This document shows, piece by piece, positions 1 to 26,266 of a DNA stretch of 38,052 nt. The stretch's first letter is position 1; each line of letters begins with the position of its first letter. Under the pieces are notes generated by a model. That model saw nothing but the letters and a program-made list of their open reading frames with translations, was not told the origin of the DNA and made no database searches. This stretch comes from Gammaproteobacteria bacterium (lineage in GTDB: Bacteria > Pseudomonadota > Gammaproteobacteria > Thiohalospirales > Thiohalospiraceae), in the NCBI GenBank assembly GCA_024277575.1, contig JAJRUX010000062.1, forward strand, positions 1 to 38,052. Reading direction: 5' to 3'. Position numbers and translations under genes: made by a program.

Positions 1-957
1 CACATCTATGTATCCAACTGGTTCTTCCTGGGCATGATGGTGATGATCACCTACCTGCATGTGGTCAACAGCCTGGCGATTCCGGTCAGCCTGTTCAAGT
101 CCTACTCGGTGTTCTCCGGGGTACAGGACGCGATGATCCAGTGGTGGTGGGGTCACAATGCCGTGGGTTATTATCTGACCGCCGGCTTTCTGGGCATCAT
201 GTATTATTTCGTACCCAAACAGGCTAACCGCCCGGTATTCTCCTACCGCCTGTCGGTTATTCACTTCTGGGCGCTGATGTTCGGCTATGTCTGGCTGGGC
301 GCTCACCATCTTCAGTACACCGCTCTGCCTGACTGGACCGGCTCTTTGGGTGCTGCAGTTTCCCTGGCCATGATCATCCCCTCCTGGGGTGGCGCGGTGA
401 ACGGCATGATGACCCTGTCCGGTGCCTGGGACAAGTTGCGTACTGACTATGTGCTGCGCTTCCTGGTAATGTCGCTGGCCTTCTATGCCATGTCCACCTT
501 TGAAGGTCCGGTTATGTCTTCCAAGACCGTGAATGCTCTTTCTCACTACACCGACTGGTCTATTGGCCATGTTCACTCCGGTGCATTGGGCTGGGTGGTC
601 ATGGTGGCAGCCGGTGCTCTGTATCACATGATTATGAAGCTGTGGAATACCGAAATGTACTCTGACAAGCTGGTCAACCTGCACTTCTGGATGGCAACCA
701 TCGGCGCGGTTATTTACATCGTTGCCATGTGGGTGTCCGGTATCATGCAGGGACTGATGTGGCGTGACTATGATGCTTTCGGAACTTTGAGCTACACCTT
801 CGCTGAGTCCGTTGCGGCCATGCACCCCTACTATGTGATGCGTGCTGTGGGTGGTGTTATTTTCTGGGGCGGTGCTGTAGTCATGCTGTACAACATGATC
901 ATGACCATTCGTATGGCCAGTGCGACTCGTGGCGTTGGCGCCCCTGCCAGAGCTTAA
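1..957 (+). CDS. ccoN: cbb3-type cytochrome c oxidase subunit I (5' partial)
   Basis: Catalytic haem-copper subunit of the cbb3 oxidase, an inner-membrane proton-pumping terminal oxidase with high oxygen affinity. The reading frame is open from base 1, so the N-terminal part (about a third of the usual 470-480 residues) lies outside the window; the 318 residues present are the C-terminal part. Visible motifs are [10 protein letters not shown] (CuB histidine and cross-linked tyrosine region), GAHHLQYT (the CuB histidine pair) and [11 protein letters not shown] (the two histidines binding high- and low-spin haem b), set among many hydrophobic helices. It ends TAA 23 bases before ccoO and heads the ccoNOQP operon. 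Its promoter is not in the window. Confidence 0.97.
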
Positions 958-980
958 TGGCTGAGAAGGAGTAGAAATCA

Positions 981-1694
981 ATGTCAAATGAAATTCATTC
1001 AACCAAATTTCAGGACAAGGTCGAAAGCAATGTCTTTGTCATGTTCATTATGTTGGCAATACTGCTCTCGGTTGGCGGCTTGGTGGAGATCGTTCCGCTG
1101 TTCTACCTGAAGGGGACGATGGAACACAACAAGCATCCCGAAATTGTCTGGCAGCGCCAGGCAGGGCAAACGCTGGCGGACTGGAAGCCGGGTGACGGCA
1201 TCCGACCCTATACGGCACTGGAGCTTGCTGGGCGTGAAGTATATATCCGGGAGGGGTGCTATCTCTGTCACTCCCAGATGATCCGGCCTTTCCGTGACGA
1301 GGCAGAGCGTTATGGTCACTACTCACTGGCTTCCGAGTCAATGTATGACCATCCGTTCCAGTGGGGGTCCAAGCGTACCGGCCCTGATTTGGCTCGAGTT
1401 GGTGGAAAATACTCCGATGAGTGGCATCGTCAGCATCTGATTGCACCACGCTCACTGGTTCCGGAATCGGTTATGCCGAATTATCCTTGGTTGGCGAAAA
1501 ACATGCTGAGTGGGGATAACGCAGTAGCTACCATGAAGGCGATGGCCATGGTTGGCGTACCTTATATCGACGCTGACTATGCTACAGCGGCAGATGAGGT
1601 CAGTGGTAAAACCGAGTTGGATGCAGTTGTTGCCTATCTGCAGGTATTGGGAACCATGGTGACCTTCGAAGAAGGTGTGGATTATCGTGAGTAG
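981..1694 (+). CDS. ccoO: cbb3-type cytochrome c oxidase subunit II, monohaem cytochrome c
   Basis: Membrane-anchored c-type cytochrome that passes electrons from CcoP to the CcoN active site. 237 residues, slightly long for the family. One N-terminal transmembrane anchor (residues about 17-40) is followed by a periplasmic domain with a single CxxCH haem site at C93-C96-H97 and a probable methionine ligand at M165 in the sequence [10 protein letters not shown]. The ATG is preceded by AAGGAG at 966-971, ten bases upstream. The stop codon overlaps the GTG start chosen for ccoQ, indicating translational coupling. Confidence 0.97.
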
Positions 1695-1893
1695 TCTTGC
1701 TGAATATTTTCATACGGATTGGGCGGCGCTGACGCTGAATGACTGGATTGGTCTGGTCACAACAGTCGCCGTTTTTATCCTGATGGTTATTGCGTATATC
1801 TATGTGTTTCACCCGGCCAACCGGGAGCATTTGGAGACGCGCAAATATATTCCGCTGGATGATGACCGTTTTGAGACGGAGGATAAGAGATGA
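1687..1893 (+). CDS. ccoQ: cbb3-type oxidase small subunit CcoQ
   Basis: Small single-pass membrane protein that stabilises the cbb3 complex. From GTG 1687 it has 68 residues: one transmembrane helix (roughly [21 protein letters not shown]) and then a polar cytoplasmic tail with the family-typical HPANREH and PLDDD segments. Two GTG starts are possible, 1675 and 1687. I chose 1687 because AAGAAGG sits about ten bases upstream and the codon overlaps the ccoO stop. The end overlaps the ccoP ATG as ATGA. Confidence 0.88.
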
Positions 1894-2747
1894 GTGATAA
1901 AAGTAATCCGTACAAAGTTCCTACTACCGGGCACGTATGGGATGATAATTTGGCTGAGTTGCTGAATGAGCCACCCAAGTGGTGGATGATCGGCTTTTGG
2001 GCCAGTATGGCATTAGTGGTTATTTACTGGTTGGTCTATCCATCGATTCCGCTGGTGAACACCCATTTCAAGGGAATTATGGGCTGGACTGCGATCAAAG
2101 AGCTCAAGCAGGATATGCAGGCTATTGAGCAGGTTCGCGCCAAATATGAGAACAGGCTTCCAGGTATGTCGGCTGCTGCCATTCTGGCGGATGATGAGTT
2201 GACTCAATATGTTACCCGTTCTGCCAAGGTGCTGTTTGGTGATAACTGTGCAGCCTGTCATGGTACTTCTGGTGCAGGTAACCCGAATTTCCCGGTGTTG
2301 GTGGATGATGACTGGCTGTATGGCGGAAAGATCGAAAATATCGTACAAAGCATCGCCAATGGTCGTCGTGGCAACATGCCGGCTCATACTGGCACGCTGA
2401 GTGATCAGGAGATAGCCGATGTTGCAAAACATGTCAAGGCGCTGAGTGAGGGTGGTGAATATGCTCCTGGCAAGGAAATATTCGCCGGTAAAGGCGCTTG
2501 TTTCGCGTGTCATGGGCAGGATGGCAAGGGAATGACAGCGTTGGGATCTGCCAATCTGACTGATGGTATCTGGAGGTTCTCACCTGGCACGGAAGAGGCG
2601 ATAGCGTACACAATTGCTCATGGTGTTAATGCTCCCAAGGATCCCAAGACGCGAGATGCTGTGATGCCCAAGTTTGGTGGCAAGATGAGCGAAGTTGAGA
2701 TCAACAAGCTGGCGGTTTATGTATACAAGCTTGGTGGTGGGCAGTAA
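1890..2747 (+). CDS. ccoP: cbb3-type cytochrome c oxidase subunit III, dihaem cytochrome c
   Basis: Dihaem membrane-bound cytochrome c that takes electrons from soluble cytochromes into the oxidase. 285 residues: a short N-terminal cytoplasmic segment containing GHVWDDNLAELLNEPPKWW (the CcoP signature), one transmembrane helix at about 32-52, then two cytochrome c domains with CxxCH sites at C120-C123-H124 and C204-C207-H208. The ATG overlaps the ccoQ stop, and the upstream GGAGG within ggaggataagag supplies a ribosome site. It closes the structural operon; a GC-rich hairpin follows about 40 bases later. Confidence 0.97.
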   Translation: MSDKSNPYKVPTTGHVWDDNLAELLNEPPKWWMIGFWASMALVVIYWLVYPSIPLVNTHFKGIMGWTAIKELKQDMQAIEQVRAKYENRLPGMSAAAILADDELTQYVTRSAKVLFGDNCAACHGTSGAGNPNFPVLVDDDWLYGGKIENIVQSIANGRRGNMPAHTGTLSDQEIADVAKHVKALSEGGEYAPGKEIFAGKGACFACHGQDGKGMTALGSANLTDGIWRFSPGTEEAIAYTIAHGVNAPKDPKTRDAVMPKFGGKMSEVEINKLAVYVYKLGGGQ

Positions 2748-2784
2748 TGCCTGGATCATTTGAAACCTGACCTGGATGTAGATT

Positions 2785-2808
2785 AGCGGGGCGGATTTCC
2801 GCCCCGTT
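2785..2808 (+). terminator. GC-rich hairpin after ccoP
   Basis: GGGGCGG (2788-2794) pairs with CCGCCCC (2799-2805) around an ATTT loop, and the outer C2787-G2806 and A2785-T2808 pairs extend the stem. No run of T follows on the plus strand, so it may attenuate transcription or protect the ccoNOQP mRNA 3' end rather than terminate fully. The short ORF at 2839 starts 31 bases later and could be reached by read-through. Confidence 0.45.
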
Positions 2809-2838
2809 GATTATGAAGATGAGAAAAGGGGACTTGTT

Positions 2839-2952
2839 ATGGATGCAGTATTTATCGGTGCTATCCTTTCGGTAATCGGTTCAATAGTGATTTTTATCGT
2901 GGTTGCCATTAAAATTATGAAGTTGATTAATACCACGCACTCGGAAGACTGA
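2839..2952 (+). CDS. 37-residue single-pass membrane protein, possible cbb3 accessory subunit
   Basis: Short ORF of 38 codons including the stop. The protein is one hydrophobic helix (about residues 4-24, rich in Ile and Val) followed by a basic stretch (KIMK) and a polar tail ending HSED. AAGGGG ends eight bases before the ATG, giving a good ribosome site. It lies 91 bases downstream of ccoP on the same strand. In Pseudomonas stutzeri a similarly sized single-helix subunit, CcoM, associates with cbb3 oxidase. I see similarity in size, topology and context but not clear sequence identity, so assignment to CcoM is an inference. The coding case rests on the ribosome site, the helix pattern and position. 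Confidence 0.55.
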   Translation: MDAVFIGAILSVIGSIVIFIVVAIKIMKLINTTHSED

Positions 2953-2988
2953 GCTGTTTCAACTATTGTAGTTGGACTATTTATTAAA

Positions 2989-3006
2989 CCTGAATCCGTG
3001 GGTTCA
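2989..3006 (+). repeat. left terminal inverted repeat of the MITE-like element
   Basis: 18 bp, preceded directly by TTAAA (2984-2988). It is perfectly complementary to the right end at 3130-3147. Confidence 0.85.
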
Positions 3007-3129
3007 TGATGGCGCATAGCACAAGCTCTTGATTCCACAGCGGTTCAAAAAATGCCCGCTTAACTAAGGGTGAAGCCAAGATTTTTTGATTCCACTGTGA
3101 AATCAATATCTTGCACTTTGCATCCGCCC

Positions 3130-3147
3130 TGAACCCACGGATTCAGG
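3130..3147 (-). repeat. right terminal inverted repeat of the MITE-like element
   Basis: 18 bp, followed directly by TTAAA (3148-3152), the second copy of the presumed target duplication. Confidence 0.85.
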
Positions 3148-3160
3148 TTAAAGTAATAAA

Positions 3161-3192
3161 ACAAAAAAAGGGGAGAAATCTCCTTTTTTTGT
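3161..3192. terminator. bidirectional intrinsic terminator
   Basis: ACAAAAAAAGG and CCTTTTTTTGT form long complementary arms, with an inner GGAG/CTCC stem. There is a run of seven T after the stem on the plus strand, and on the minus strand another T run followed by TTTTATTAC. It could end read-through from the ccoP and 37-residue ORF side and also end the possible minus-strand ORF at 3268-3483. Confidence 0.7.
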
Positions 3193-3267
3193 TTCTATAT
3201 ATTACGGCCCTTTTGTCAGGGAGTGTTTTAACTATTCTATCCATCTCTGATTTGTCTGGTTGTGGCA

Positions 3268-3483
3268 TCAAAAACGCTGGTTTGCAGGTTGGTGTAAACG
3301 GCATGTTTTATGTGCAATAAAGTCAGGTGTAATCTTAGTGGTTATGGTCTTACCTTTAACTGTGGTGAATAGTCCCGTTTTTTTATCCCAAGCTGTTTCT
3401 ATTCCTTTTTTAGTCGGTTTCCATTGCTTCTCTGTACATGGAATAATGCCTTTCGTGATACAATAATCCCTTCCACATTTCAT
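3268..3483 (-). CDS. possible 71-residue cysteine-containing small protein, unrecognised
   Basis: Minus-strand ORF starting ATG at 3483 with GGAG five bases upstream (minus-strand cggagatgcgATG), ending 75 bases before a terminator that works in this direction. The protein is Lys/Thr-rich, with cysteines near residues 3, 8, 15 and 61 (MKCGRDYC at the start). I recognise no family. The frame is open further upstream (to 3624), but that part would run over the ccoG start and is probably not translated. The ribosome site and terminator support a gene; the lack of any recognisable domain and the AT-rich context do not. It could also be debris left by a transposition event. Confidence 0.3.
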   Translation of the reverse strand: MKCGRDYCITKGIIPCTEKQWKPTKKGIETAWDKKTGLFTTVKGKTITTKITPDFIAHKTCRLHQPANQRF

Positions 3484-3613
3484 CGCATCTCCGTTTTTGG
3501 ATAACGGCATATTTGGCGATATGGTGCTTATCCTTCGGCTCGTCGACGCCGCTTCGATGCTTTGACAGGCAGGTGGACATATCGATGGTCTTGTATGTAA
3601 CGTGAGGAATGGT

Positions 3614-5041
3614 ATGAGCAACAACAGCCGGCCAGAGCAAAACGCTAATCTTTCTGACCTGTATGAAGAGGCGGGTCATTGGCATGTGAATACCGGTGGT
3701 GAGACTATCCATGCCAAGCGGATTGGTGGGCGTTTTCGCCGGCTCAAGTGGATGACGTCTTCAATCTGGCTACTATTTTTTCTTGGCCCTTATCTGCGTT
3801 GGGGTGGGCGTCAGGCCATTCTATATGATATTCCCAACCGTCAGTTTCACTTTTTTGGGCTGACTATCCTGCCTCAAGATGTGTGGATGCTGTCGCTGGT
3901 GTTGCTGTTTCTTGCCATCGTGCTGATTGGAGCCACGGTTATTGCAGGCCGGGTGTTCTGCGGTTTTTTCTGTTTTCAGACTGCGTGGACGGATGTTTTT
4001 ACCTGGATCGAGGACAAGCTGGAAGGGCCTCCAGCCAAGCGACGCAAACTGGATAAAGCGCCATGGGATGCCACCAAGATCCGGATCAAGTTTACCAAGC
4101 ATTTTTTGTGGTTGTTGATCGCCGTGGTAACTGGTGTAACTTTTGCCGGTTGGTTCACTGATATCTATCAGCTCTGGTATGACTTCTTCACCCTTCAGGC
4201 TCATCCTGCCGCATGGGTAACATTGGGCCTGTTTATTGCCGGTACCTATATTCTGGCTGGTTTTATGCGAGAGCAGGTCTGTTTCTGGTTGTGCCCCTAT
4301 TCACGTATTCAGGGGGTTATGTATGAGCCGGAAACTATTCTTCCCACTTATGATGTCAAGCGAGGCGAGCCCCGGGGAAGACTAAAAAAAGGGGCTTCCG
4401 TTGATGATGATCAGTTTGGGGATTGTGTGGACTGTAATTTGTGTGTAGCGGTATGTCCTACCGGAGTTGATATTCGCCATGGCCAGCAGGAGGGATGCAT
4501 AACTTGCGGCCTCTGTATTGATGCTTGCGATCAGGTAATGGATAAAGTCAATCGTCCTCACGGCCTGATTCGGTACGCATCGCTGGATGAAATTGAAGGA
4601 AAACCGAGAATAGCGTTGTTTAAGCGTCCCAAAGTACTGGTCAGTCTGGCCATAATAACGATTGCCTTGCTGGGAATAATATATGGCGTAGCAAATATTT
4701 CCGGGATTGAGCTTAAAGTTTTGCATGATCGGCAGCCACTGTTTGTGCTGCAAAGTGATGGTTCAATTCAAAACAGGTATGAGATTAAGGTACTTAACAA
4801 GACCAGTCAGGATATTCATGTCAAGCTCACCGCTGAGGGTCCTGCCGGTTTGAAGATTGCGGGTGCAGAGAAGGCGCTTGTTGCGCCCAAGGGTAATATT
4901 TCTGCATATACAGTGTTTGTCAGGGTTCCAAAGAAAAATCTTGCAGGGGAGCGCGTTCCTATAATCTTTCGGGTATCAGCACAGGAGCAGCCAGATCTGA
5001 GTACCGAATATGAAAGCATGTTTTTTGGCCCGCGCCGCTGA
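3614..5041 (+). CDS. ccoG: cbb3 oxidase assembly protein CcoG, ferredoxin-like cupric reductase
   Basis: Polytopic membrane iron-sulfur protein; the family reduces Cu(II) to Cu(I) for CcoI-dependent CuB insertion. 475 residues from ATG 3614. I prefer this ATG to GTG 3602 because GAGG lies six bases upstream. Several N-terminal membrane helices contain the pairs GRVFCGFFC and CFWLCPYSRIQ. Two 4Fe-4S cysteine clusters follow at C271/274/277/281 and C295/298/301/305, then another helix and a C-terminal immunoglobulin-like periplasmic domain. It heads the assembly operon ccoGHIS, with ccoH 18 bases downstream. Confidence 0.95.
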   Translation: MSNNSRPEQNANLSDLYEEAGHWHVNTGGETIHAKRIGGRFRRLKWMTSSIWLLFFLGPYLRWGGRQAILYDIPNRQFHFFGLTILPQDVWMLSLVLLFLAIVLIGATVIAGRVFCGFFCFQTAWTDVFTWIEDKLEGPPAKRRKLDKAPWDATKIRIKFTKHFLWLLIAVVTGVTFAGWFTDIYQLWYDFFTLQAHPAAWVTLGLFIAGTYILAGFMREQVCFWLCPYSRIQGVMYEPETILPTYDVKRGEPRGRLKKGASVDDDQFGDCVDCNLCVAVCPTGVDIRHGQQEGCITCGLCIDACDQVMDKVNRPHGLIRYASLDEIEGKPRIALFKRPKVLVSLAIITIALLGIIYGVANISGIELKVLHDRQPLFVLQSDGSIQNRYEIKVLNKTSQDIHVKLTAEGPAGLKIAGAEKALVAPKGNISAYTVFVRVPKKNLAGERVPIIFRVSAQEQPDLSTEYESMFFGPRR

Positions 5042-5059
5042 TTAACGGAGCAACGAAAT

Positions 5060-5590
5060 ATGAGTAAAACATTGGAAAACCGGTTCTCACAGAGCAGCAA
5101 GCGTGCCTGGCGGAATCCTTGGGTGGTCGGTTGGTTGGTGCTGCTTGGAATCGTTCTGGCAGTCAACGCAGGAATGATAACATTGGCGTTTGTTACCGGG
5201 CCGGGATTGGTGGACAAGAATTACTATGAACTGGGTCAGGAGTTTGAGAGAAATCGCCTTAAACGAGTAGCGGCCCGGAGTGCCCTTGGCTGGACGGCTC
5301 ATCTGGATATGCCAGAAGAGAACCAACAGGGTATCGGTGCGGTATATCGGTTCAGTGTGGTGGATCGTGTTGGGGTTCCAGTTGATAATCTGCAAGTACA
5401 GATCAGCACCTATCGCCCTTCAGATGCTGATGCGGACTTTTCTGTGCCAATGGAGCCTTATGCGCCAGGGATGTATCAAGCCGAACTGGTATTTCCTCTT
5501 AAAGGTCATTGGGAAATCACCCTTGTTGCAAAACAGGGTGAGGAAAGCTACGAGCTTATCAAACGGCGTATTTTTGTGCTTGGAAACTAG
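5060..5590 (+). CDS. ccoH: cbb3 oxidase assembly factor CcoH (FixH family)
   Basis: Single-pass membrane protein needed for assembly and stability of cbb3 oxidase. 176 residues: a short polar N-terminus with NPWVVGWL, one transmembrane helix at about residues 26-50, the family landmark DKNYYELGQEFE, and a C-terminal beta-rich periplasmic domain ending in GHWEITLVAKQG. It sits in the usual place between ccoG and ccoI, 18 bases after ccoG. Confidence 0.93.
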   Translation: MSKTLENRFSQSSKRAWRNPWVVGWLVLLGIVLAVNAGMITLAFVTGPGLVDKNYYELGQEFERNRLKRVAARSALGWTAHLDMPEENQQGIGAVYRFSVVDRVGVPVDNLQVQISTYRPSDADADFSVPMEPYAPGMYQAELVFPLKGHWEITLVAKQGEESYELIKRRIFVLGN

Positions 5591-5644
5591 TATGTTTCGT
5601 GGGCAATATAGAATTCACCATGAATAGTGTTACCAGGGCAGTGC

Positions 5645-8143
5645 ATGTCATCATATCAGCCTCAATCTGAGGCTGGCACCGGCGAACAGGGTTCTACGCA
5701 GAATGGCTGCTTTCATTGTGGTTTGCCGCTTCCCGAATGTGAACTGTTTGAAGCGGAAATCGAGGGTTGCTCAAGGCGTTTCTGCTGTCTGGGTTGTCAG
5801 TCCGTTTGTAAGGTAATCTATGATGCCGGGCTGGATGGGTTTTATCAGCGGGCTCCCGAAGGTACTCTGCTTGCTCCTCCCCCTGAACTGCCTAAAGATC
5901 TCGCTTTTTACGACTTGGATGAGGTTCAGAGTGAGTATGTTAGCGATCTGGGTGAGCAGCGGGAGATCGATCTGCTGGTAGAGGGGATCCACTGCGCTGC
6001 CTGTGTCTGGCTTATCGAGCGGACTCTGGCTGGGGTTCCCGGCGTGACTAGTGCCAATGTCAATTTGTCTGGCAGACGGCTGCATCTGCGTTGGGACAAC
6101 AACAAAATTCATCTGTCTCAAATTCTGGCCCGGCTGGGTGAAATTGGCTACGTTGCAGTACCGTTTGATCCGGATGCGGCGGAAGGTGCTCTCAAGCGCC
6201 AGAACCGGGCATTCCTGTTCCGCATCGCCTTTGCCGGGTTTGCCATGATGAATCTGCTATGGGTCTCCATAGCACTGTACACCGGGGCGGATGAAGGGGA
6301 GTTCCGCAACCTGTTTTACTGGGTAGGATTTGCGCTTGCCACCCCTACGCTGTTTTATTCCGGTTTCCCTTTCCTCAAGGGGGCCTGGACCGGGCTGCGG
6401 CGAATGCACCTGACCATGGATCTGCCCATCGCCATTGGTGCCACCTCGACCTATCTTTATTCCGGCTACGTCACCATGTTCAACCCTGTCCAGGGGCATG
6501 TCTATTTCGATACGGTGGTTAATCTGATTTTTGTACTGCTGGTCGGACGCTTTCTTGAGTCAACATCCAAGCGTCATGCCGTGGCGGCGAGTCAACGTCT
6601 TATGGATCTGCAGCCGCGCGTTGCAACGGTAGTGCGGGATGGTGTCGATCAGATAGTGCCGGTGCGGGCAGTCAAGGCAGGGGAGCTGATCCTGGTCAAG
6701 GCTGGGGAGCAGATTCCGGTCGATGGCACTATCACTGAGGGACGTAGTTCAATAAATGAGGCCATGCTTACTGGCGAATCCAGGCCGGTAGACAAAATGA
6801 GGGATGACAAAGTGTCAGCAGGCACCATGAACCTTACCAGCACGCTGCAAATTCGAGTAACCGGTGTTCTGAAGGATACTGCACTGGGGCGCATTATTCA
6901 CCTGGTGGAGGAGGCGCAGGCATCCAAAGCGCCAATTCAGCGAATTGCGGATCGAATTGTTCCCTGGTTTGTTACTGTTACTCTGGTACTGGCGGCACTG
7001 ACCTTTGGCTTCTGGTTGAACAGTGGGCTCGAACTGGCGCTGATGGCTGCCATTTCGGTGCTAATCATAACCTGCCCCTGCGCTTTCGGAATGGCAACGC
7101 CGATGGCAATTGCAGTAGCCTCCGGACTGGGCGCCCGTAACGGCATCCTGGTTAAAAATGGTGAAGTGCTGGAGACATTGTCCCGGATCTCCCACTTTGT
7201 GTTTGACAAGACCGGAACTCTGACCGAGGGGCGGATGAAAGTTCAGGTGCTGCATTTGGTGAAGGGTAGCCGTGAGCAGGATATTGTTGCTCTGGCGGCC
7301 TTGGTAGAGCGTTATTCAGAGCACAGTATCGCACAGGCGATTGTGTTGAAGGCGGAATCTGATGAGCTGGAGCATGGCACAGACCCTGTAATTAACTTTG
7401 AAAACCGGGCTGGTCTGGGTGTCAGCGCCGATGTAAATGGTCGGAAAATTTTGTTAGGGAGTCGAACCTGGCTGGCCCGGAATGGGGTGGAGGATTCCGG
7501 GGTATTCACCGATCCCTCCCGGCGTCTGGAAAAAGGTGCGGTAACCTGTATTTATATGGCTATTGACGGCCGGGAGGTGGCTCTGTTCGGTGTTGCCGAT
7601 CAATTGCGCCCTGGTGCGGCTGAACTGCTTGACTCATTCCGTCAGCAGGGAATTCGTTTGACTCTGCTCAGTGGAGACAGCAAACAGGTGGCCCAGGCCG
7701 TAGCCCGGCAGTTGGGTGGCATGGAGGTGATTGCCGAAGTGCTGCCGGATGAGAAAGACAGTGTAATCCAGCGGTTGCAGGAAGAGGGCGAACGTGTTGC
7801 CATGGTGGGAGATGGCATAAATGACGCTCCGGCTCTGATTCGGGCTGACGTGGGAATTTCGCTGGGTTCCGGTACCGATGCGTCCATGGAGAGCTCTGAT
7901 ATTGTACTGATGAGCGATGAACTGGACAAGGTGGAGCAGAGTGTGGCACTGTCGCGGCGTACGCTGCGCACTATCCGGCAGAATATCGGCATCTCCTTAG
8001 TCTACAATAGTATTATGGTGCCTCTGGCAATGATGGCCTATGTGACACCGCTGGTTGCAGCGATTGCCATGCCGATCAGCTCCCTGCTGGTAATCGGGAA
8101 TTCGGCGCGGATCCGGACACTGTTTGCCAAAAAATCATCTTGA
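5645..8143 (+). CDS. ccoI: copper-transporting P1B-type ATPase CcoI
   Basis: Copper-exporting ATPase that delivers Cu(I) across the inner membrane for the CcoN CuB site. 832 residues from ATG 5645. The frame also allows GTG 5627, but AGGG lies eight bases before the ATG. Order of domains: an N-terminal cysteine-rich metal-binding region (CFHCGLPLPEC, CCLGCQSVC) typical of CcoI/FixI; an HMA domain with C117AAC120; membrane helices; the actuator motif TGES at 376-379; the transport site CPC at 477-479; phosphorylation aspartate D521 in DKTGTLTEG; and the hinge VGDGINDAPAL. It lies between ccoH and ccoS as usual. Confidence 0.96.
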   Translation: MSSYQPQSEAGTGEQGSTQNGCFHCGLPLPECELFEAEIEGCSRRFCCLGCQSVCKVIYDAGLDGFYQRAPEGTLLAPPPELPKDLAFYDLDEVQSEYVSDLGEQREIDLLVEGIHCAACVWLIERTLAGVPGVTSANVNLSGRRLHLRWDNNKIHLSQILARLGEIGYVAVPFDPDAAEGALKRQNRAFLFRIAFAGFAMMNLLWVSIALYTGADEGEFRNLFYWVGFALATPTLFYSGFPFLKGAWTGLRRMHLTMDLPIAIGATSTYLYSGYVTMFNPVQGHVYFDTVVNLIFVLLVGRFLESTSKRHAVAASQRLMDLQPRVATVVRDGVDQIVPVRAVKAGELILVKAGEQIPVDGTITEGRSSINEAMLTGESRPVDKMRDDKVSAGTMNLTSTLQIRVTGVLKDTALGRIIHLVEEAQASKAPIQRIADRIVPWFVTVTLVLAALTFGFWLNSGLELALMAAISVLIITCPCAFGMATPMAIAVASGLGARNGILVKNGEVLETLSRISHFVFDKTGTLTEGRMKVQVLHLVKGSREQDIVALAALVERYSEHSIAQAIVLKAESDELEHGTDPVINFENRAGLGVSADVNGRKILLGSRTWLARNGVEDSGVFTDPSRRLEKGAVTCIYMAIDGREVALFGVADQLRPGAAELLDSFRQQGIRLTLLSGDSKQVAQAVARQLGGMEVIAEVLPDEKDSVIQRLQEEGERVAMVGDGINDAPALIRADVGISLGSGTDASMESSDIVLMSDELDKVEQSVALSRRTLRTIRQNIGISLVYNSIMVPLAMMAYVTPLVAAIAMPISSLLVIGNSARIRTLFAKKSS

Positions 8144-13801: not shown

Positions 13802-15901
13802 ATGGATGCTGCGGCACTTATAGAAACCATAAGCCACTGGACCGCCGCCCATCCCGGCTGGGCCGGGTGGCTGGTATTTGCCATCGCGCTGGGTGAGTCG
13901 CTGGCGGTGGTGGGGTTGTTTGTCCCGGGTGCGGTGTTGATGTTTGTGGTTGGGGCCCTGGTCGGAGGAGGAATGATGGAGTTGTGGCCTACGCTGGCGT
14001 GGGCCGCGGCAGGCGCCGTTGCCGGTGATGGTATCAGCTACTGGATAGGCCGTTACTACCATCAGCAACTGCGCTCAGTATGGCCTTTCAGCCGTCATCC
14101 TGCCCTGATTGACAAGGGGGAGGTGTTTTTTCGGCGTCATGGTGGCAAGGGGGTGCTGTTTGGCCGCTTTGTCGGGCCGGTGCGCCCCATCATTCCGGTG
14201 GTGGCCGGAATGATGGATATGCCTGCCTGGCGTTTTTCCCTTATAAATGTGCTGTCAGCTCTGCTTTGGGCGCCTGCCTATATTCTGCCTGGAGTGGTAT
14301 TCAGCAGTTCGCTGAGCATGGCGACAGAGGTGGCCGGGCGTTTGGCAGTAGTGATGTTGCTGCTGTTTACCGTATTGCTGATTACTGTCTGGTTGATGCG
14401 GTGGATATTCTGGTTGCTGCAGCCACGCGCCAATCCGGTCATTACTCTGATACTGGCATGGAGCCGCCGTCATCCGTTTGTTGGCGGGATTGCTGAAGCA
14501 CTGCTGGATCCGGAACATCCCGAGGCGCGCGGTCTCGCTGTTCTTTCAGGGGTGCTTTTCGTGGCGGTGATAGCATCTGCACTGCTGATTACAGCAATCC
14601 AGGAGAGTCAACTTCTGGGTAATCTGGATCTGCTGATATTCAACTCCTTGCAGGCATTGCGTACCCCTTGGGCGGATCAGGTGATGGTATTTGTTACCTG
14701 GTTTGGGGATGCTTATGCCGTTGGCCTGCTTTTGCTGGTGGCCGCCGGTTGGTTGGGCTGGAAAAAAAACTGGCGTGCCGTGTCTCATTTGCTGGCCGCT
14801 GCTATCTGTACCGAGCTTATGGTGCTGGTACTGAAAACGGTCACTGCCATTGATCGCCCTGTTGCCATTTATCACGGTGTGAACACCTTCTCTTTCCCCA
14901 GCGGCCATACTGCGATGAGTACTGTAGTGTTCGGTATGCTGGCGATTATCATAGCCGGCATGCTGCCACTGCCACGGCGCTGGCTGGCTTATGGCCTGGC
15001 GGGCGTGCTGGCTGTACTGGTTGGTTTTTCACGTCTCTATCTGGGGGCGCACTGGTTCTCCGATGTCTTGGGTGGCTTTGTGTTAGGGGTTGCCTGGGCA
15101 TCACTGGTGGGAATTGCCTATCGAAGGCATCTGTCTCCCTCACAGAGGGATCGTCCGGTGACGGCGGGAGGTTTTTCCATGGTGATTGCTGGTGTGCTGC
15201 TGGTGACCGGATTGTGGGGGGCAACCCGGGTTGGAGAGGAGGTAGAACGCTATGTTCCTGTTCGCACAGTTCAGCAGTTAAATGTTGATGAGTGGTGGGA
15301 GGGTATGTGGGCAGAGTTGCCAGCCTACCGAGCTGATTTTCGCAGCTTGCACAATCACCCATTGACCGTTCAATGGATGGGAAGCCCCAGCGAGTTGCGT
15401 GATTACCTGGAGCAGGTGGGTTGGTCTGTCCCCCCTTCGCTGGATGTCACCCATGCCCTGCGCTTGCTGGCTTCACAGGCAGATGCAGAGAAACTGCCGG
15501 TACTCCCGCAGGTGAATGATGGCCGGCATGAGGCGTTGAGGCTGGTCCACAGCACCGCGCATGCCGATGTGTTAATGGTGTTGAGATTATGGCCAACCGA
15601 TATACTCCTTGTTCCGGGTGATGTTCCGCTGTGGCAGGGGAATGTGAGTTATCTTCGTTTTTCCCGGGTTGCCGGGCTGATTACTGAAGCTTCGACCGAG
15701 GCGGATTTTATCCGGCCATTTGATGTTTTTTCCAGAGATATTGAACAGATAAATGGGTTGTCTGCAAAGCGGGTATTTCGAAATGGAGAGCTGGCTAAAA
15801 CAGTGCAGTGGGATGGGCGGGTTATTTTGATCAGGGGTGATGAATCCCCAGTTTCTCCAGCAGAACATACAGGTGTTCCAGCCGCTGCAGAGGGTCGGTA
15901 A
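13802..15901 (+). CDS. DedA / PAP2 phosphatase / LssY-type three-domain membrane protein
   Basis: 699-residue inner-membrane protein with three parts. Residues about 1-200 are a DedA (VTT/SNARE-associated) domain with GESLAVVGLFVPGAVLM, FRRHGGKGVLFGRFVGPVRP and VAGMMDMP. Residues about 240-450 are a PAP2 lipid phosphatase with all three motifs: K345-x6-RP, PSGH at 366-369, and SRLYLGAHWFSDVLGG. The rest (about 480-699) resembles the LssY C-terminal domain of Legionella lssY-type proteins. A role in polyprenyl-phosphate or phospholipid recycling is likely from the domains; the substrate is unknown. The 3' end overlaps the convergent Lon-like gene by 71 bp. Confidence 0.85.
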   Translation: MDAAALIETISHWTAAHPGWAGWLVFAIALGESLAVVGLFVPGAVLMFVVGALVGGGMMELWPTLAWAAAGAVAGDGISYWIGRYYHQQLRSVWPFSRHPALIDKGEVFFRRHGGKGVLFGRFVGPVRPIIPVVAGMMDMPAWRFSLINVLSALLWAPAYILPGVVFSSSLSMATEVAGRLAVVMLLLFTVLLITVWLMRWIFWLLQPRANPVITLILAWSRRHPFVGGIAEALLDPEHPEARGLAVLSGVLFVAVIASALLITAIQESQLLGNLDLLIFNSLQALRTPWADQVMVFVTWFGDAYAVGLLLLVAAGWLGWKKNWRAVSHLLAAAICTELMVLVLKTVTAIDRPVAIYHGVNTFSFPSGHTAMSTVVFGMLAIIIAGMLPLPRRWLAYGLAGVLAVLVGFSRLYLGAHWFSDVLGGFVLGVAWASLVGIAYRRHLSPSQRDRPVTAGGFSMVIAGVLLVTGLWGATRVGEEVERYVPVRTVQQLNVDEWWEGMWAELPAYRADFRSLHNHPLTVQWMGSPSELRDYLEQVGWSVPPSLDVTHALRLLASQADAEKLPVLPQVNDGRHEALRLVHSTAHADVLMVLRLWPTDILLVPGDVPLWQGNVSYLRFSRVAGLITEASTEADFIRPFDVFSRDIEQINGLSAKRVFRNGELAKTVQWDGRVILIRGDESPVSPAEHTGVPAAAEGR

Positions 15902-17107: not shown

Positions 17108-18469
17108 TCAATTACCACCTAAAGCATGTTGCAACCTGGTGTGAATATCACTGAATGCGCCGTTACTCATTACCACGATCTGATCGCTCGGGCGGGCCAG
17201 GTTTGCAACTGAGTTAACCAGCTCGGCAATATTAGTATAAACTTTAGCACATGCCCCCAGTGTTCGGGTGATCTCACTCAACTCCCACTCCAGTCCTTCT
17301 GGCTGGAACAGCATTACATGATCAGCCGGGGCGAGTGCCGGGGCCAGCTCATTTTTGTGTACCCCCATGCGCATGGTGTTGGAACGTGGTTCCAGCAGGG
17401 CGATGATGCGCTGGTTACCGGCATGTGCGCGCAGTCCTGCCAGGGTAGTGGCGATTGCGGTAGGGTGATGGGCAAAATCATCGTAAATGGTAATCCCATT
17501 GATGCAGGCCCGTCTCTCCATGCGGCGCTTGACGTTTTTGAAACGATTCAATGCGCCGATGGCGTGTTGTGCGGGAACCCCGGCGTGGCGCGCAGCCGCG
17601 ATGGCGGCCAAGGCGTTGTTGATATTGTGTTCGCCCATCAGTTCCCACTCCACTTTCCCCTGACAGGCAGTCTCCAGGTTAACCTCGAAACGGCTGCCAT
17701 CGGCGCTGGAGTTGCCGGTAGTCCAGTCGGCATTCTCTGTTGCGGAGAAAGTTTCCCGTGGAGTCCAGCAGCCCTGTGCCATAACTGGGTCGATATTCCG
17801 GGTATCGGCCGGGGTGAGGATAAGCCCGTTACCGGGTACTGTCCGGATCAGGTGATGAAACTGCTGCTGGATTGCAGCCAGATCGGGAAAGATGTCAGCA
17901 TGGTCAAACTCAAGATTATTGATGGTGAGCGTGCGTGGCCGGTAGTGGATAAATTTGGAACGCTTGTCAAAAAAAGCCGTATCGTACTCATCCGCTTCGA
18001 CCACGAAGAAAGGGGTAGAGCCCAGCCGTGCGCTGACGCCGAAGTTCTGGGGTATACCGCCGATCAGAAAGCCGGGTGCCAGCCCTGCATCTTCCAGAAT
18101 CCAAGCCAGCATACTGGATGTGGTGGTTTTACCGTGGGTACCCGATACCGCCAGCACCCATCGTCCTTGCAGGACATGTTCCGCAAGCCACTGAGGGCCT
18201 GACGTATAACGCAGGCCCTGCTCCAGCACATGTTCTATCAAGGGGTTCCCCCTTGAGAGGGCATTGCCGATGACAACTACATCGGGTTCCGGATCAAGGT
18301 GGCCAGGCTCGTAGCCCTCCCGCAGCTCAATCCCCTGGGACTGGAGCTGGGTACTCATGGGTGGATAGACATTTGTGTCCGAGCCGCTAACCTGATGGCC
18401 CAGTTCGCGTGCCAGTAGTGCTATCCCCCCCATAAAGGTACCGCAGATTCCGGCAATATGTATGTGCAT
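17108..18469 (-). CDS. mpl: UDP-N-acetylmuramate:L-alanyl-gamma-D-glutamyl-meso-diaminopimelate ligase
   Basis: Mur-family ligase that attaches the recycled tripeptide L-Ala-D-Glu-mDAP to UDP-MurNAc, re-using peptidoglycan turnover products in the cytosol. 453 residues, normal length. Starts MHIHIAGICGTFMGG (Rossmann UDP-binding), ATP loop GTHGKTTTS at 110-118, Mpl-specific VVEADEYDTAFFDKRSKF, NNLEFDHADIF, GEHNINNALAAIAAA and YDDFAHHPTAI. It begins divergently from the TetR gene, 237 bp away. Confidence 0.96.
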   Translation of the reverse strand: MHIHIAGICGTFMGGIALLARELGHQVSGSDTNVYPPMSTQLQSQGIELREGYEPGHLDPEPDVVVIGNALSRGNPLIEHVLEQGLRYTSGPQWLAEHVLQGRWVLAVSGTHGKTTTSSMLAWILEDAGLAPGFLIGGIPQNFGVSARLGSTPFFVVEADEYDTAFFDKRSKFIHYRPRTLTINNLEFDHADIFPDLAAIQQQFHHLIRTVPGNGLILTPADTRNIDPVMAQGCWTPRETFSATENADWTTGNSSADGSRFEVNLETACQGKVEWELMGEHNINNALAAIAAARHAGVPAQHAIGALNRFKNVKRRMERRACINGITIYDDFAHHPTAIATTLAGLRAHAGNQRIIALLEPRSNTMRMGVHKNELAPALAPADHVMLFQPEGLEWELSEITRTLGACAKVYTNIAELVNSVANLARPSDQIVVMSNGAFSDIHTRLQHALGGN

Positions 18470-18645: not shown

Positions 18646-18674
18646 TTGACGCAGTCAGTAACGCTTGCTAATGT
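18646..18674 (+). promoter_or_regulatory. putative sigma-70 promoter of the TetR gene
   Basis: TTGACG (18646-18651), a 17-base spacer, then TAATGT (18669-18674), which keeps the key T1, A2 and T6 positions. It lies 33 bases before the chosen TetR ATG at 18707, which makes the upstream in-frame ATG at 18671 an unlikely start because it falls inside the -10 element. Confidence 0.45.
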
Positions 18675-18706
18675 TTTTAACTAGAACCAAAGGGTACTAT
18701 CCAGAT

Positions 18707-19270
18707 ATGAGAGGCAGTCGCAAAAAAGTTATAGAGACCGCGCAGCGCCTGATGCGTGAGCGGGGCTACAAAGCTACCGGGATTAAAGAGATACTGGAGC
18801 AAAGCCGGGTTTCGCGTAGTAACTTCTACTATCACTTCACTTCAAAGCGTCAATTAGCCGAGGCTGTGATCGCTGTGTGGAAGGATAATCTGCAGTGTGT
18901 TTTTTCCTCCATTGTCGAGCAAGACCTCACCTATCGTCAGCAGATTGAGCTGTTTGTGCAGATATTTATTGATACCCAGACGCATGACGCCTTTACCGTT
19001 TGTCCTTTCGGGCGCCTTGCTATTGAACTGGGAAACTCCGAACCGACACTACACAAACTTGTTAATCAGGTTTTCACAGAGTTTCACATGGAGGTATCAC
19101 GGTTGATTCAGCTGGGTATTGATAACGGGGAGTTCAAGCAGGAAACCGATGCGGAGATGTTGTCCAATGCGCTTCTGGTGGCTATTCAGGGAGGGATTAT
19201 TCTGAGCCATGCTCACGGAAATGCTAAGGCAATGGCGGAGACCTGTCGTTATATTTTGGATAATGCCTGA
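18707..19270 (+). CDS. TetR/AcrR family transcriptional regulator
   Basis: 187 residues from ATG 18707; upstream in-frame starts (18665, 18671) fall in the putative promoter. N-terminal TetR DNA-binding domain: IETAQRLMRERGYKATGIKEIL then the recognition helix SRVSRSNFYYHFTSKRQLAEAV, a textbook match. The C-terminal ligand-binding half contains CPFGRLAIELG, like the CP-G-LA motif of the LmrA/YxaF-type regulators, and a helix LIQLGIDNGEFKQETDAEML. The ligand is unknown. It is 74 bp from the di-iron oxidase gene on the same strand and probably regulates it; its own operator may lie in the mpl/tetR gap. Confidence 0.9.
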   Translation: MRGSRKKVIETAQRLMRERGYKATGIKEILEQSRVSRSNFYYHFTSKRQLAEAVIAVWKDNLQCVFSSIVEQDLTYRQQIELFVQIFIDTQTHDAFTVCPFGRLAIELGNSEPTLHKLVNQVFTEFHMEVSRLIQLGIDNGEFKQETDAEMLSNALLVAIQGGIILSHAHGNAKAMAETCRYILDNA

Positions 19271-19344
19271 TGCCTTAATCCAATAATCAAAATCTGGAGT
19301 CACAGGTTATAGCTTATAGTATTGATCTCGGGGGAGGGGGGATA

Positions 19345-20085
19345 TTGGAAAACATGCAAACACCTTTCACGCAGGAAGAGTTGAATTCCATCCTGGTCAG
19401 AGAGAATCAGCTTTTTCTCAACGACCTTGAAGAGCGTGTACAGTCTCATGGGGTATTTGATCATCCGGTGCTGGTTAATATGGCAGATGGTCGGTACAGT
19501 CGGGATTTCATCAAGTTTTTCCTGTGCCAGTTTTCCAGGCATGTCCGGGTGTTTACCGCAGCGCTGTCTGCCTTGTTGGGGAATGCGCCGGATTTCAAGA
19601 GTCGTTTCGTGCTGTTTGATAATCTGTATGAAGAGATGGGCCGTGGTGATTATCGCAAGGGCCATTTCATGCTGTACCTGAGCATGCTGGATTCCATGGG
19701 AGTCAGTGACCAGGAGTTGCAGTCACTTCCACCACTTTGCTCGATAACCTTGTTGAACGACAGTCTGTTTTATGCGGTTACACAGAAGCCGTTTAATGTT
19801 GGGCTGGCTTGGTTGGGGTTAGGTGGTGAATTGACTATCCCTAACAATTTTCCCTATATAGTTGAGGCATTGAAAAAATTTTACTCCGACAGTAGCGTCG
19901 ATTGGAGTTTTTTTGACCGGCATGGTGGCCGTGATCAGATGCATAGCGATGATGCCAATACCGTTCTCGCCTTGTATATGACTGAGGAAGATAGGGAAAC
20001 CATTGAAGCAGAAGTATGGAAATCACTGGCTGCCCGCAAGGCAGTATGGGATGAACTGGAGTTATACGCTACAGAATACAAATAA
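19345..20085 (+). CDS. haem-oxygenase-like di-iron oxidase (HDO; CADD/PqqC/TenA-like fold)
   Basis: 246 residues, all-helical, of the Haem_oxygenas_2 type (iron-containing redox enzyme family). Visible putative metal ligands: E97 in NLYEEMGRG, H107, E162 in GGELTIP, then H193, D197 and H200 in RHGGRDQMH. The H-x3-D-x2-H spacing equals that of Chlamydia CADD, a p-aminobenzoate synthase, and the E162 to H193 distance is also close. Related enzymes do varied chemistry (UndA alkene formation, N-oxygenation, pABA synthesis), so the substrate is open. GGAGG at 19333-19337 is seven bases before TTG 19345, favouring it over ATG 19354. It lies between a TetR gene and a carrier-like gene. Confidence 0.8.
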   Translation: MENMQTPFTQEELNSILVRENQLFLNDLEERVQSHGVFDHPVLVNMADGRYSRDFIKFFLCQFSRHVRVFTAALSALLGNAPDFKSRFVLFDNLYEEMGRGDYRKGHFMLYLSMLDSMGVSDQELQSLPPLCSITLLNDSLFYAVTQKPFNVGLAWLGLGGELTIPNNFPYIVEALKKFYSDSSVDWSFFDRHGGRDQMHSDDANTVLALYMTEEDRETIEAEVWKSLAARKAVWDELELYATEYK

Positions 20086-20116
20086 AATCTGTAGTGAGTG
20101 AGCGCCGGAGGCGATG

Positions 20117-20395
20117 ATGAAGAACATAAGAACAGAGGTGTTCCGGCAGGTGGCGCTGTATGCTGGAGTCGACAAAAAGGATATCAGTGGCGAAAGTTTG
20201 TTGTATGATGAACTGGGCATGGATCCCTTGGTGATACTTATGTTGCTGATAACGCTGGCCGAGTCGCTGGGAAAAAATGTTTTTACTCTACGATTTGAGC
20301 TGGAAAATTTAAATAGTGTTGATGACCTTGTAACGGTTTTTCATCCGCCAGCAGTTTCGGTTAGTCAACCCCGGGTTCGTTACTGTCTTCACTGA
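20117..20395 (+). CDS. acyl-carrier-protein-like protein lacking the phosphopantetheine serine
   Basis: 92 residues from ATG 20117, which has GGAGG five bases upstream; ATG 20114 is only two bases from it. The layout is that of an ACP: helix 1 TEVFRQVALYAGVDKKDI, the loop LLYDELGMDPLVILMLLITLAESLG and a last helix NSVDDLVTVF. The canonical DSL becomes D36-P37-L38, so the serine that carries phosphopantetheine is absent (codons gat ccc ttg). If the frame is right it cannot be a classical acyl carrier. It starts 31 bases after the HDO gene, so the two are probably co-expressed. The C-terminal 17 residues are unlike ACPs. Confidence 0.7.
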   Translation: MKNIRTEVFRQVALYAGVDKKDISGESLLYDELGMDPLVILMLLITLAESLGKNVFTLRFELENLNSVDDLVTVFHPPAVSVSQPRVRYCLH

Positions 20396-20541: not shown

Positions 20542-21690
20542 GTGCAGGAACTCTATATTGATACTCCGCGGGAGCTGGGTGAACTGTGCCGTCGTTTGCG
20601 TGGCAGCACCTGGTTGGCGCTGGATACTGAATTTATTCGTGAAAAGACCTATTTCCCACGCCTGTGCCTGCTGCAGATAGCCAACGAAGAATTGGTTGCT
20701 TGTGTCGATCCACTCGTCTTATCAGATCTGGGTGAACTGCTTGATATCATCTATGATTCGGAAATCGTCAAGGTATTCCACGCCGGACGCCAGGATCTGG
20801 AGATTTTTTTCTATCTCAAGAATGAGCTTCCCCAGCCGCTGTTTGATACACAGATCGCTGCGGCTCTGCTGGGTTACGGCGATCAGATCGGCTATGGCGC
20901 CCTGGTCAAGGAGATGCTGGGGATAGAGCTGGCCAAGGCTCACAGCCGTACTGACTGGTCGTTGCGCCCGCTGGAGCTGGAACAGGTTCACTATGCGGCT
21001 GACGATGTGCGGTATTTACGGGAGCTGTATCAAAAACAGCGGAAAACGCTGGCCGATCTCGGGCGTCTGGAGTGGTTGGCGGATGACTTTGCTGTGCTGG
21101 CGGATCCCCACACTTATCAGAACACTGCCGGCGAGACATGGCGTCGGGTGCGCGGACACCAGCACCTCAGAGGTGCGCAACTGGCGGTTCTGCAAGCTGT
21201 CGCTGCATGGAGGGAGGAGCAGGCCCGGCAGCTGGACAAACCTCGAAAATGGTTGCTGCGTGATGACGTGTTGCTGGAACTGGCCCGTCGTCAGCCCAAG
21301 GATCGCCAGGCCCTGAACAGGATTCGGGGATTGGAAACAGGTAGCCAGCGTCGTTATGGCAGTGAGATACTCGCCTTGATTCGTACAGCGCGGGAACTGC
21401 CTGCGGAGCAGTGGCCCCGGGCGGATAAACGGGTACGTTTGTCATTGGAGCAGGAGAGTATGGTTGATGTAATGATGGGCTTGGTGCGGCTTGTGGCGAT
21501 GAGTAACCAAATCAGCCCCGCCAGTCTGATCAGCCGCAAAGAGCTGGAGCATCTTGCCAGTGGTGAGTTGGATATCCCGGTAATGCAGGGCTGGCGGGCC
21601 GAGTTGTGCGGCAATAAATTGCGAGCCTTTCTTGACGGCCGGATTCAGTTGCAGATGGAGCAGGGGCGGTTGGTAGAAACCAGCGTGTAG
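20542..21690 (+). CDS. rnd: ribonuclease D
   Basis: 3'-5' exoribonuclease that trims tRNA and other stable RNA. 382 residues from GTG 20542, with AGGAAAA seven bases upstream. DEDD exonuclease domain: D28-T-E30 in LALDTEFIREKTYFPRL, FHAGRQDLEIF, FDTQIAAALLGYG and YAADDVRYLREL (exo III). A C-terminal HRDC domain is present from about residue 205 (AWREEQARQLDKPRKWLLRDD) and a second helical HRDC-like part after 290. Family-typical length. Confidence 0.95.
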   Translation: MQELYIDTPRELGELCRRLRGSTWLALDTEFIREKTYFPRLCLLQIANEELVACVDPLVLSDLGELLDIIYDSEIVKVFHAGRQDLEIFFYLKNELPQPLFDTQIAAALLGYGDQIGYGALVKEMLGIELAKAHSRTDWSLRPLELEQVHYAADDVRYLRELYQKQRKTLADLGRLEWLADDFAVLADPHTYQNTAGETWRRVRGHQHLRGAQLAVLQAVAAWREEQARQLDKPRKWLLRDDVLLELARRQPKDRQALNRIRGLETGSQRRYGSEILALIRTARELPAEQWPRADKRVRLSLEQESMVDVMMGLVRLVAMSNQISPASLISRKELEHLASGELDIPVMQGWRAELCGNKLRAFLDGRIQLQMEQGRLVETSV

Positions 21691-24598: not shown

Positions 24599-26266
24599 TT
24601 ATTTCACACCTTTTTCTCTCAGGAAGGGTACATATTTTTTGTCGGTACCTTGGATATGGTGTGCCAGCCAGTTTTTCAGGAACTGCAGCAGCTCTTCAAG
24701 AACGGTTTCATCCTTGGCGGTGACCCGGCCCTGAAATTCCATGATGCGGGCAACCAGCTTTTTGTGCTTGACCTGGTGTGGCCCCAGATCGGGATAGCCA
24801 TGCATTGCCAGCAGACCCTCCTCATAGGTAAAGTGGGTCTTGGTGTACTCCACCAGTCCGTTCAGGATCCGCCCCAGCATCTCATGGCCGCTGTTGTTGC
24901 CTGCTTCGTAATAGAGCTCGTTCACGATATCCACCAGCAGTTTGTGCTGACGGTCAACTTCGGCGATGCCAACCATAAGTGATTCATCCCAGCGAAACAG
25001 CAGATTACTGTCTTGGGCGGTTCGTCTCTCTTGTAGTGCTTTCTGGTTAATCCGGAACCGATCCAGCAGTACGCGTACCTCCGCAGCCATGGCGGCAACC
25101 CGGGTGCTTTCGGAACCGGCATGTTGGGCGTCATGGTTTATTTCATCCACTGCCTGGGAAATGCGGTTGATGTTGCTGTTAATATCCTCAGCCACGACAC
25201 TTTGTTGTTCAACTGCTGTTGCAATCAGCTCGTTCATTTCGGTAATGGAGGTGATGGCGCCGGCAATTTCATCCAGTACGGAACAGGTCCCGTTGGCCTG
25301 AGCCACACTTTGCTTGGCCCGCTCTCCGCTGGAGAGCATAACCTGGGCGGTTTCGCGGGTATCCCGTTGCAGATCCTCAATCATGCTCTGGATTTCCAGG
25401 GTTGACTCCTGGGTGCGTCTGGCCAGAGAGCGTACCTCATCGGCTACCACGGCAAAACCGCGTCCCTGTTCCCCAGCACGGGCCGCCTCAATGGCTGCGT
25501 TCAGTGCCAGCAGGTTGGTTTGTTCCGCGATATCACGAATGATATCCAGAATGCCATTGATATTGCTGCTGTGGTTCTCCAGCCGTCCAATTGCATCGAC
25601 TGCCTGTTGCACATCGCCGGCCAGGGCGTTGATGGAGCTGACGGCTTCTTCCACAACTTTTTGTCCACTTAGAATAGAGTTGTCTGCCTGTCTGGCTGCA
25701 TCAGCCGCTTGGGATGAGTTACGCGCAACCTCCTGTACCGTAGCTGTCATTTCGGTCATTGCTGCTGCTGCCTGTTCGATACTTTCGGCCTGGATGGAGA
25801 CGTTCTCTCCCGACTGTTTGTTGAGAACTGCCAGTTTGTCGGAAGTATCCGCCAGCACGCCTACGGTGGTGAGTACCGAGGTGATCGCCTGTCCGACGCC
25901 ATCGGATATATGATTGATGGAAGATGCAACCTCTGTCATTTCATCATGACTATTCAGGGACAGACGGGTACTCATGTCACCTTCGGCCATTTTTTTGCTG
26001 ACCTCCTGAAGCTGGTTAACGGTCGAGCAGATTGCTGCGTAGATAGCGAGATAAAGATAAGACAACAACAGCAGACTACCAACCAGAAGGGTGACATTCA
26101 GGTATTCCACTGTTTTACTTGTGGCTGTTTCTGCGCTGTTAGCACTGAAAAGCTCGTAACCAAAAATCAGCAAAGGTGCCGCACTGATTACAAACAGCAG
26201 AAAAAATTTGGTCCGGAAGCGAAGCTGGTTCATCAGATGGATAGCTGGCATCAATAAAACATTCAT
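24599..26266 (-). CDS. methyl-accepting chemotaxis protein with C-terminal bacteriohemerythrin domain
   Basis: 555-residue chemoreceptor. Two membrane helices at about 21-40 and 57-80 enclose only about 15 periplasmic residues, so there is no periplasmic sensor. A HAMP-like segment ([20 protein letters not shown]) and the signalling domain with [32 protein letters not shown] follow. From about 423 there is a complete hemerythrin domain: [20 protein letters not shown], and HHIQGTD, supplying the usual His/Glu/Asp ligands for an oxygen-binding di-iron site. The likely signal is oxygen, as in DcrH-type receptors. AGGA lies about ten bases before the ATG. Confidence 0.93.

Follow-up and report, generated by a model that had tools for sequence, protein, structure and literature searches.

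On balance, the three adjacent genes described here are best read as an autoregulated pair, encoding a TetR-family regulator and a haem-oxygenase-like dimetal oxidase (HDO), standing in front of a gene for a genus-specific protein with a probable acyl carrier protein (ACP) fold that would not need a phosphopantetheine arm; on this reading, the HDO would oxidise a free small molecule. The analysis was carried out on a window of 38,052 nucleotides, which is contig 15 of the 2.4 Mb draft genome of a gammaproteobacterium known only from environmental DNA.

Organization of the locus

As the original prediction had described, three genes lie on the same strand (plus): a tetR gene (18707–19270; 187 aa, of the TetR_C_13 type, with a conserved Cys99 in the motif VCPFG), the HDO gene (19345–20085; 246 aa) and the ACP-like gene (20117–20395; 92 aa), separated by 74 and about 31 bases. 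The ATG of tetR at 18707 is a start common to its relatives. The HDO starts with a TTG at 19345, an assignment supported by the conservation of residues M1 and E2 in five of five close HDOs. The ACP-like reading frame could begin at 20114 or 20117, and the second ATG is the one kept in genome G004. On one side lies an mpl-like gene (17108–18469, minus strand; UDP-N-acetylmuramate ligase type) and on the other an rnd-like gene (20542–21690, plus strand; RNase D type), both named by eye from the sequence rather than through a family search. The G+C fraction of the three genes is 0.45–0.48, compared with 0.56 for mpl and rnd.

The grouping extends beyond this contig, as two other genomes of the genus (G004 and G001) have all three genes together in the order TetR-HDO-ACP. 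In the three HDO-bearing genomes the mpl-like gene is the upstream neighbor of tetR. In three other genomes (G002, G005 and G007), the ACP-like gene stands by itself between mpl and rnd, with neither TetR nor HDO, and the mpl-like gene is then its direct upstream neighbor. Downstream of the ACP-like gene comes the rnd-like gene, in the window as in G002, G005 and G007, and the contigs of G004 and G001 end before this point. No trace of TetR or HDO was found between mpl and the ACP-like gene in G002, G005 and G007 (best E = 0.59), a result compatible with either a gain or a loss of the TetR-HDO pair. Gene trees of rnd and mpl lacked the resolution needed to tell whether the HDO-bearing genomes form one clade or more. 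An origin of the HDO from a plasmid or a virus was considered and rejected, a search having returned a single plasmid match at 25% and zero viral matches.

Elsewhere in the window we observed a cbb3 oxidase region (34–8140) with COX1, FixO, FixP, FixG and FixH and a metal-transporting P-type ATPase, a single 699-aa protein combining VTT (DedA), PAP2 and LssY_C domains (13802–15901), and a 555-aa methyl-accepting chemotaxis protein with a hemerythrin domain at its C-terminus (24602–26266).

The oxidase is an HDO that lacks the consumed residues of CADD

By its sequence and its predicted fold, the protein encoded at 19345–20085 is an HDO. It matched PF14518 (Haem_oxygenas_2) with E = 1e-21, and its predicted structure (pLDDT 93.8) matched CADD, BesC, UndA, PqqC and TenA in the PDB. 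The model has the haem-oxygenase-like helical fold of the superfamily and the sequence supplies its three histidine and three carboxylate ligands, in the order E, H, E and H-x3-D-x2-H. This superfamily has more than 10,000 members, of which about a dozen have been characterised (PMC13108848). The ligands originally proposed (E97, H107, E162, H193, D197 and H200) are correct in the numbering that starts at the TTG, and were the only fully invariant columns in an alignment of 20 HDOs that included the one in the window. As the distant rows of this alignment were picked partly or mostly for the H-x3-D-x2-H motif, the fair test is provided by E97, H107 and E162, which were not selected for.

The nearest solved structure is that of CADD (TM-score 0.78 normalized by query and 0.90 by target), a p-aminobenzoate synthase in which Tyr27 is consumed and Lys152 is the amine donor (PMC13108848, PMC11965152). 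CADD and NePabS, another p-aminobenzoate synthase, resemble the window HDO in fold, size and the six metal ligands, and TIGR04305, the NCBIfam model for CADD, does match it. However, the score of that match (71.9 bits) is far below the cut-off of 200, identity to CADD and NePabS is about 20%, the gene neighbors differ, and in the alignment to 1rcw the residues Y27 and K152 of CADD correspond to L43 and I172. As both of these residues are absent, the HDO is not a CADD-type synthase, and a self-sacrificing route to p-aminobenzoate, already contradicted by the sequence, can be ruled out with hardly any doubt. Thus, of the CADD-type assignment made in the original prediction, the ligand pattern stands and the function does not. 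BesC, UndA and HrmI, HDOs that act on free amino or fatty acids, also share the fold and the 3-His/3-carboxylate pattern of the window protein, from which they differ in showing only 12–19% identity in structural matches. The substrate of the window HDO is probably a free small molecule.

Beyond the genus, the closest HDOs among those found were those of Sulfurimonas sp. CG01 (L013; about 48% identity), a Bathymodiolus symbiont (L014; 44%) and a Polyangiaceae genome (L015; 37%). The Sulfurimonas protein has all six ligands and an adjoining TetR_C_13 gene, as in the window; unlike the window protein, it carries a fused SnoaL_3 domain, and an ACP-like gene was not found nearby. In that locus (L013, 4896–7880) the TetR_C_13 gene comes after the HDO-SnoaL_3 fusion, which is flanked by this TetR and a DJ-1/AraC-type regulator. 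The HDO of the Bathymodiolus symbiont (L014, 2831–3600) is broken by stops in the tested frame and has a Tyr in place of H200. No carrier gene was detected beside the HDO in L013, L014 or L015 within up to 6 kb on each side. Apart from the genome of the window, 398 sampled genomes of the phylum yielded no member of the HDO subfamily at E ≤ 1e-20. Another arrangement was seen within the class, where an HrmI-like HDO (L009, 1270–2723; 347 aa, minus strand) is divergent from the gene of an 83-aa ACP with an apparent attachment Ser.

The ACP-like protein and its missing serine

The window protein alone scored 15.8 bits against PF00550, below the Pfam cut-off of 20.8. A profile built from six relatives retrieved almost only acyl carrier proteins from the PDB (best E = 1e-4), and its similarity to proteins such as AcpP and Pseudomonas aeruginosa Acp3 spans the ACP domain. 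The structural model, of low confidence (mean pLDDT 60), places helices where ACPs have them, and in a fold search for which this model was too weak ACPs came first without reaching significance. The helix-II region (LMLLITL.ES) is the best conserved part. A search of the order's other genera found no member of the family, and among 369 sampled genomes of the class a single weak match (G347, E = 7e-6) came from beyond the genus.

The phosphopantetheine position is a Pro in the window (GMDPL), which bears out its description as serine-less in the original prediction, and also in G002, G005 and G007, and it is a Ser in G004 and G001. The family thus differs from acyl carrier proteins in that four of its six members have Pro where the modified Ser would be, and also in its end, where a variable tail is followed by a C-terminal Cys-(Leu/Phe)-His in all six (Cys-Leu-His in the window, Cys-Cys-Ala-Leu-His in G005). 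A sequencing error at the serine codon was considered and rejected, as three other genomes also have Pro there. The dN/dS ratio of the ACP-like gene was about 0.18 between the window and G004 and 0.19 between G002 and G007, both of which lack the Ser; on these ratios the serine-less members are under purifying selection. A search of the literature on serine-less ACPs found nothing direct. A function independent of phosphopantetheine is the simplest account of this protein, at least in the four species with Pro, and with the attachment point lost in most of the related species, a role in binding or regulation is more probable than one as a carrier.

The original prediction had seen in it a dedicated carrier-like partner of the HDO. 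This part did not hold, as the ACP-like gene occurs at the locus without the HDO in three genomes, the Ser is absent in four of six members, and the other close HDOs have no counterpart beside them. A narrower version, in which the HDO of G004 and G001 is served by this protein as a genuine phosphopantetheine carrier and a recent T-to-C change cost the window copy its Ser, strikes us as unlikely, although several observations speak for it. The window and G004 do differ at the first base of the serine codon, the gap between the HDO and ACP-like genes is as short as noted above, and the HrmI-like HDO in the class has a Ser-bearing ACP as its divergent neighbor. Moreover, the Ser is found in two of three HDO-bearing genomes compared with none of three HDO-free ones (six sequences, mostly from draft genomes); the DSL motif is intact in those same two, and its Asp is confined to the HDO-bearing genomes, the HDO-free members being degraded (GPL, EPV). 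This pattern of Ser and Asp hints at a link between the HDO and a modified ACP, against the explanation that we prefer, and it would allow the protein to serve as a carrier in some species, with numbers too small to say more. On the other hand, neither the HDO nor the TetR of the window shows signs of decay (dN/dS 0.07 and 0.04, respectively, relative to G004), the window ACP-like protein has no excess of lineage-own amino acid changes (2–4, compared with 4–9 in G004), the serine-less copies without an HDO are still selected, and the close HDO relatives elsewhere have no nearby carrier gene.

A second alternative is that the ACP-like protein binds the HDO directly and thereby regulates it, by analogy with P. 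aeruginosa Acp3, a protein that represses the catalase KatA by binding to it (PMC6158461). In addition to this precedent, the loss of the attachment Ser in most members, the conservation centered on helix II and the recurrence of the same operon-like arrangement in three genomes would agree with such a role. Nevertheless, we regard it as rather improbable: in the three genomes with the ACP-like protein and no HDO another partner would be needed, and the Acp3 study leaves open what part phosphopantetheine plays in the binding of KatA (PMC6158461). A more speculative idea, to which we give little credence, is that the C-terminal tail replaces the phosphopantetheine arm on an ACP fold, the Cys thiol (or a metal bound at Cys-His) doing the job of the arm, and that this protein was recruited by the TetR-controlled HDO in some species.

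The TetR regulator and its promoter region

In Pfam searches the regulator matched TetR_N (E = 8e-14) and TetR_C_13 (E = 1e-14), the helix-turn-helix and TetR_C_13 domains both scoring above cut-off, and by sequence it is of the AcuR/YxaF/NemR type. In NemR and AltR a conserved Cys senses reactive compounds, and an inverted repeat mediates repression of their own promoter (PMC13178969). The window TetR resembles AcuR, YxaF, NemR and AltR in the TetR_C_13 domain, in a Cys region (C99 being matched by region only) and in a palindrome at its own promoter, whereas identity is low and the palindrome is unlike the AltR box. C99 shares one aligned column with a Cys of the TetRs near HDOs in L013, L027 and L034.

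A candidate promoter, TTGACG-N17-TAATGT, in which TGC precedes the second hexamer, lies in front of tetR on the plus strand (18648–18676, to within a few bases). It belongs to a block conserved in the window, G004 and G001, and falls short of the threshold used in the consensus scan. Just downstream is a candidate operator, the palindrome TAGAACC-AAAG-GGTACTA (18682–18699; TAG-N-ACC-N4-GGT-N-CTA), which is kept in G004 and has one half-site mismatch in G001. Allowing up to one mismatch, the palindrome has one copy in the genome, the pattern having been derived from that same site; this uniqueness fits a local regulator and says nothing for binding. The proposal of control by TetR thus gains a conserved candidate operator at the regulator's own promoter. 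A terminator-like site that overlaps the end of tetR (19231–19250) would speak against the explanation that we prefer, and is within chance expectation.

Discussion

In the explanation that we prefer, a ligand-responsive TetR would repress its own promoter through the palindrome and, thereby, the downstream HDO. An inducer, most likely an electrophile or a hydrophobic small molecule, would free the TetR and allow the HDO to be made, and the enzyme, with two metals bound by its six conserved ligands, would oxidise a free small molecule with O2. The ACP-like gene, which also exists as mpl-ACP-rnd without TetR-HDO, is here probably transcribed together with that pair, as the last gene. Its product may need no phosphopantetheine arm and would most likely act through binding to another protein, in which case it would not be an obligatory substrate carrier for the HDO.

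This compact HDO subfamily, present in three phyla, twice found beside a TetR and devoid of the residues that CADD consumes, constitutes a tractable target, and the inducer of the TetR should point to the substrate of the HDO. Moreover, a small family in which the carrier Ser is present or absent depending on the species, under purifying selection, offers a natural test of the ACP fold without its arm.
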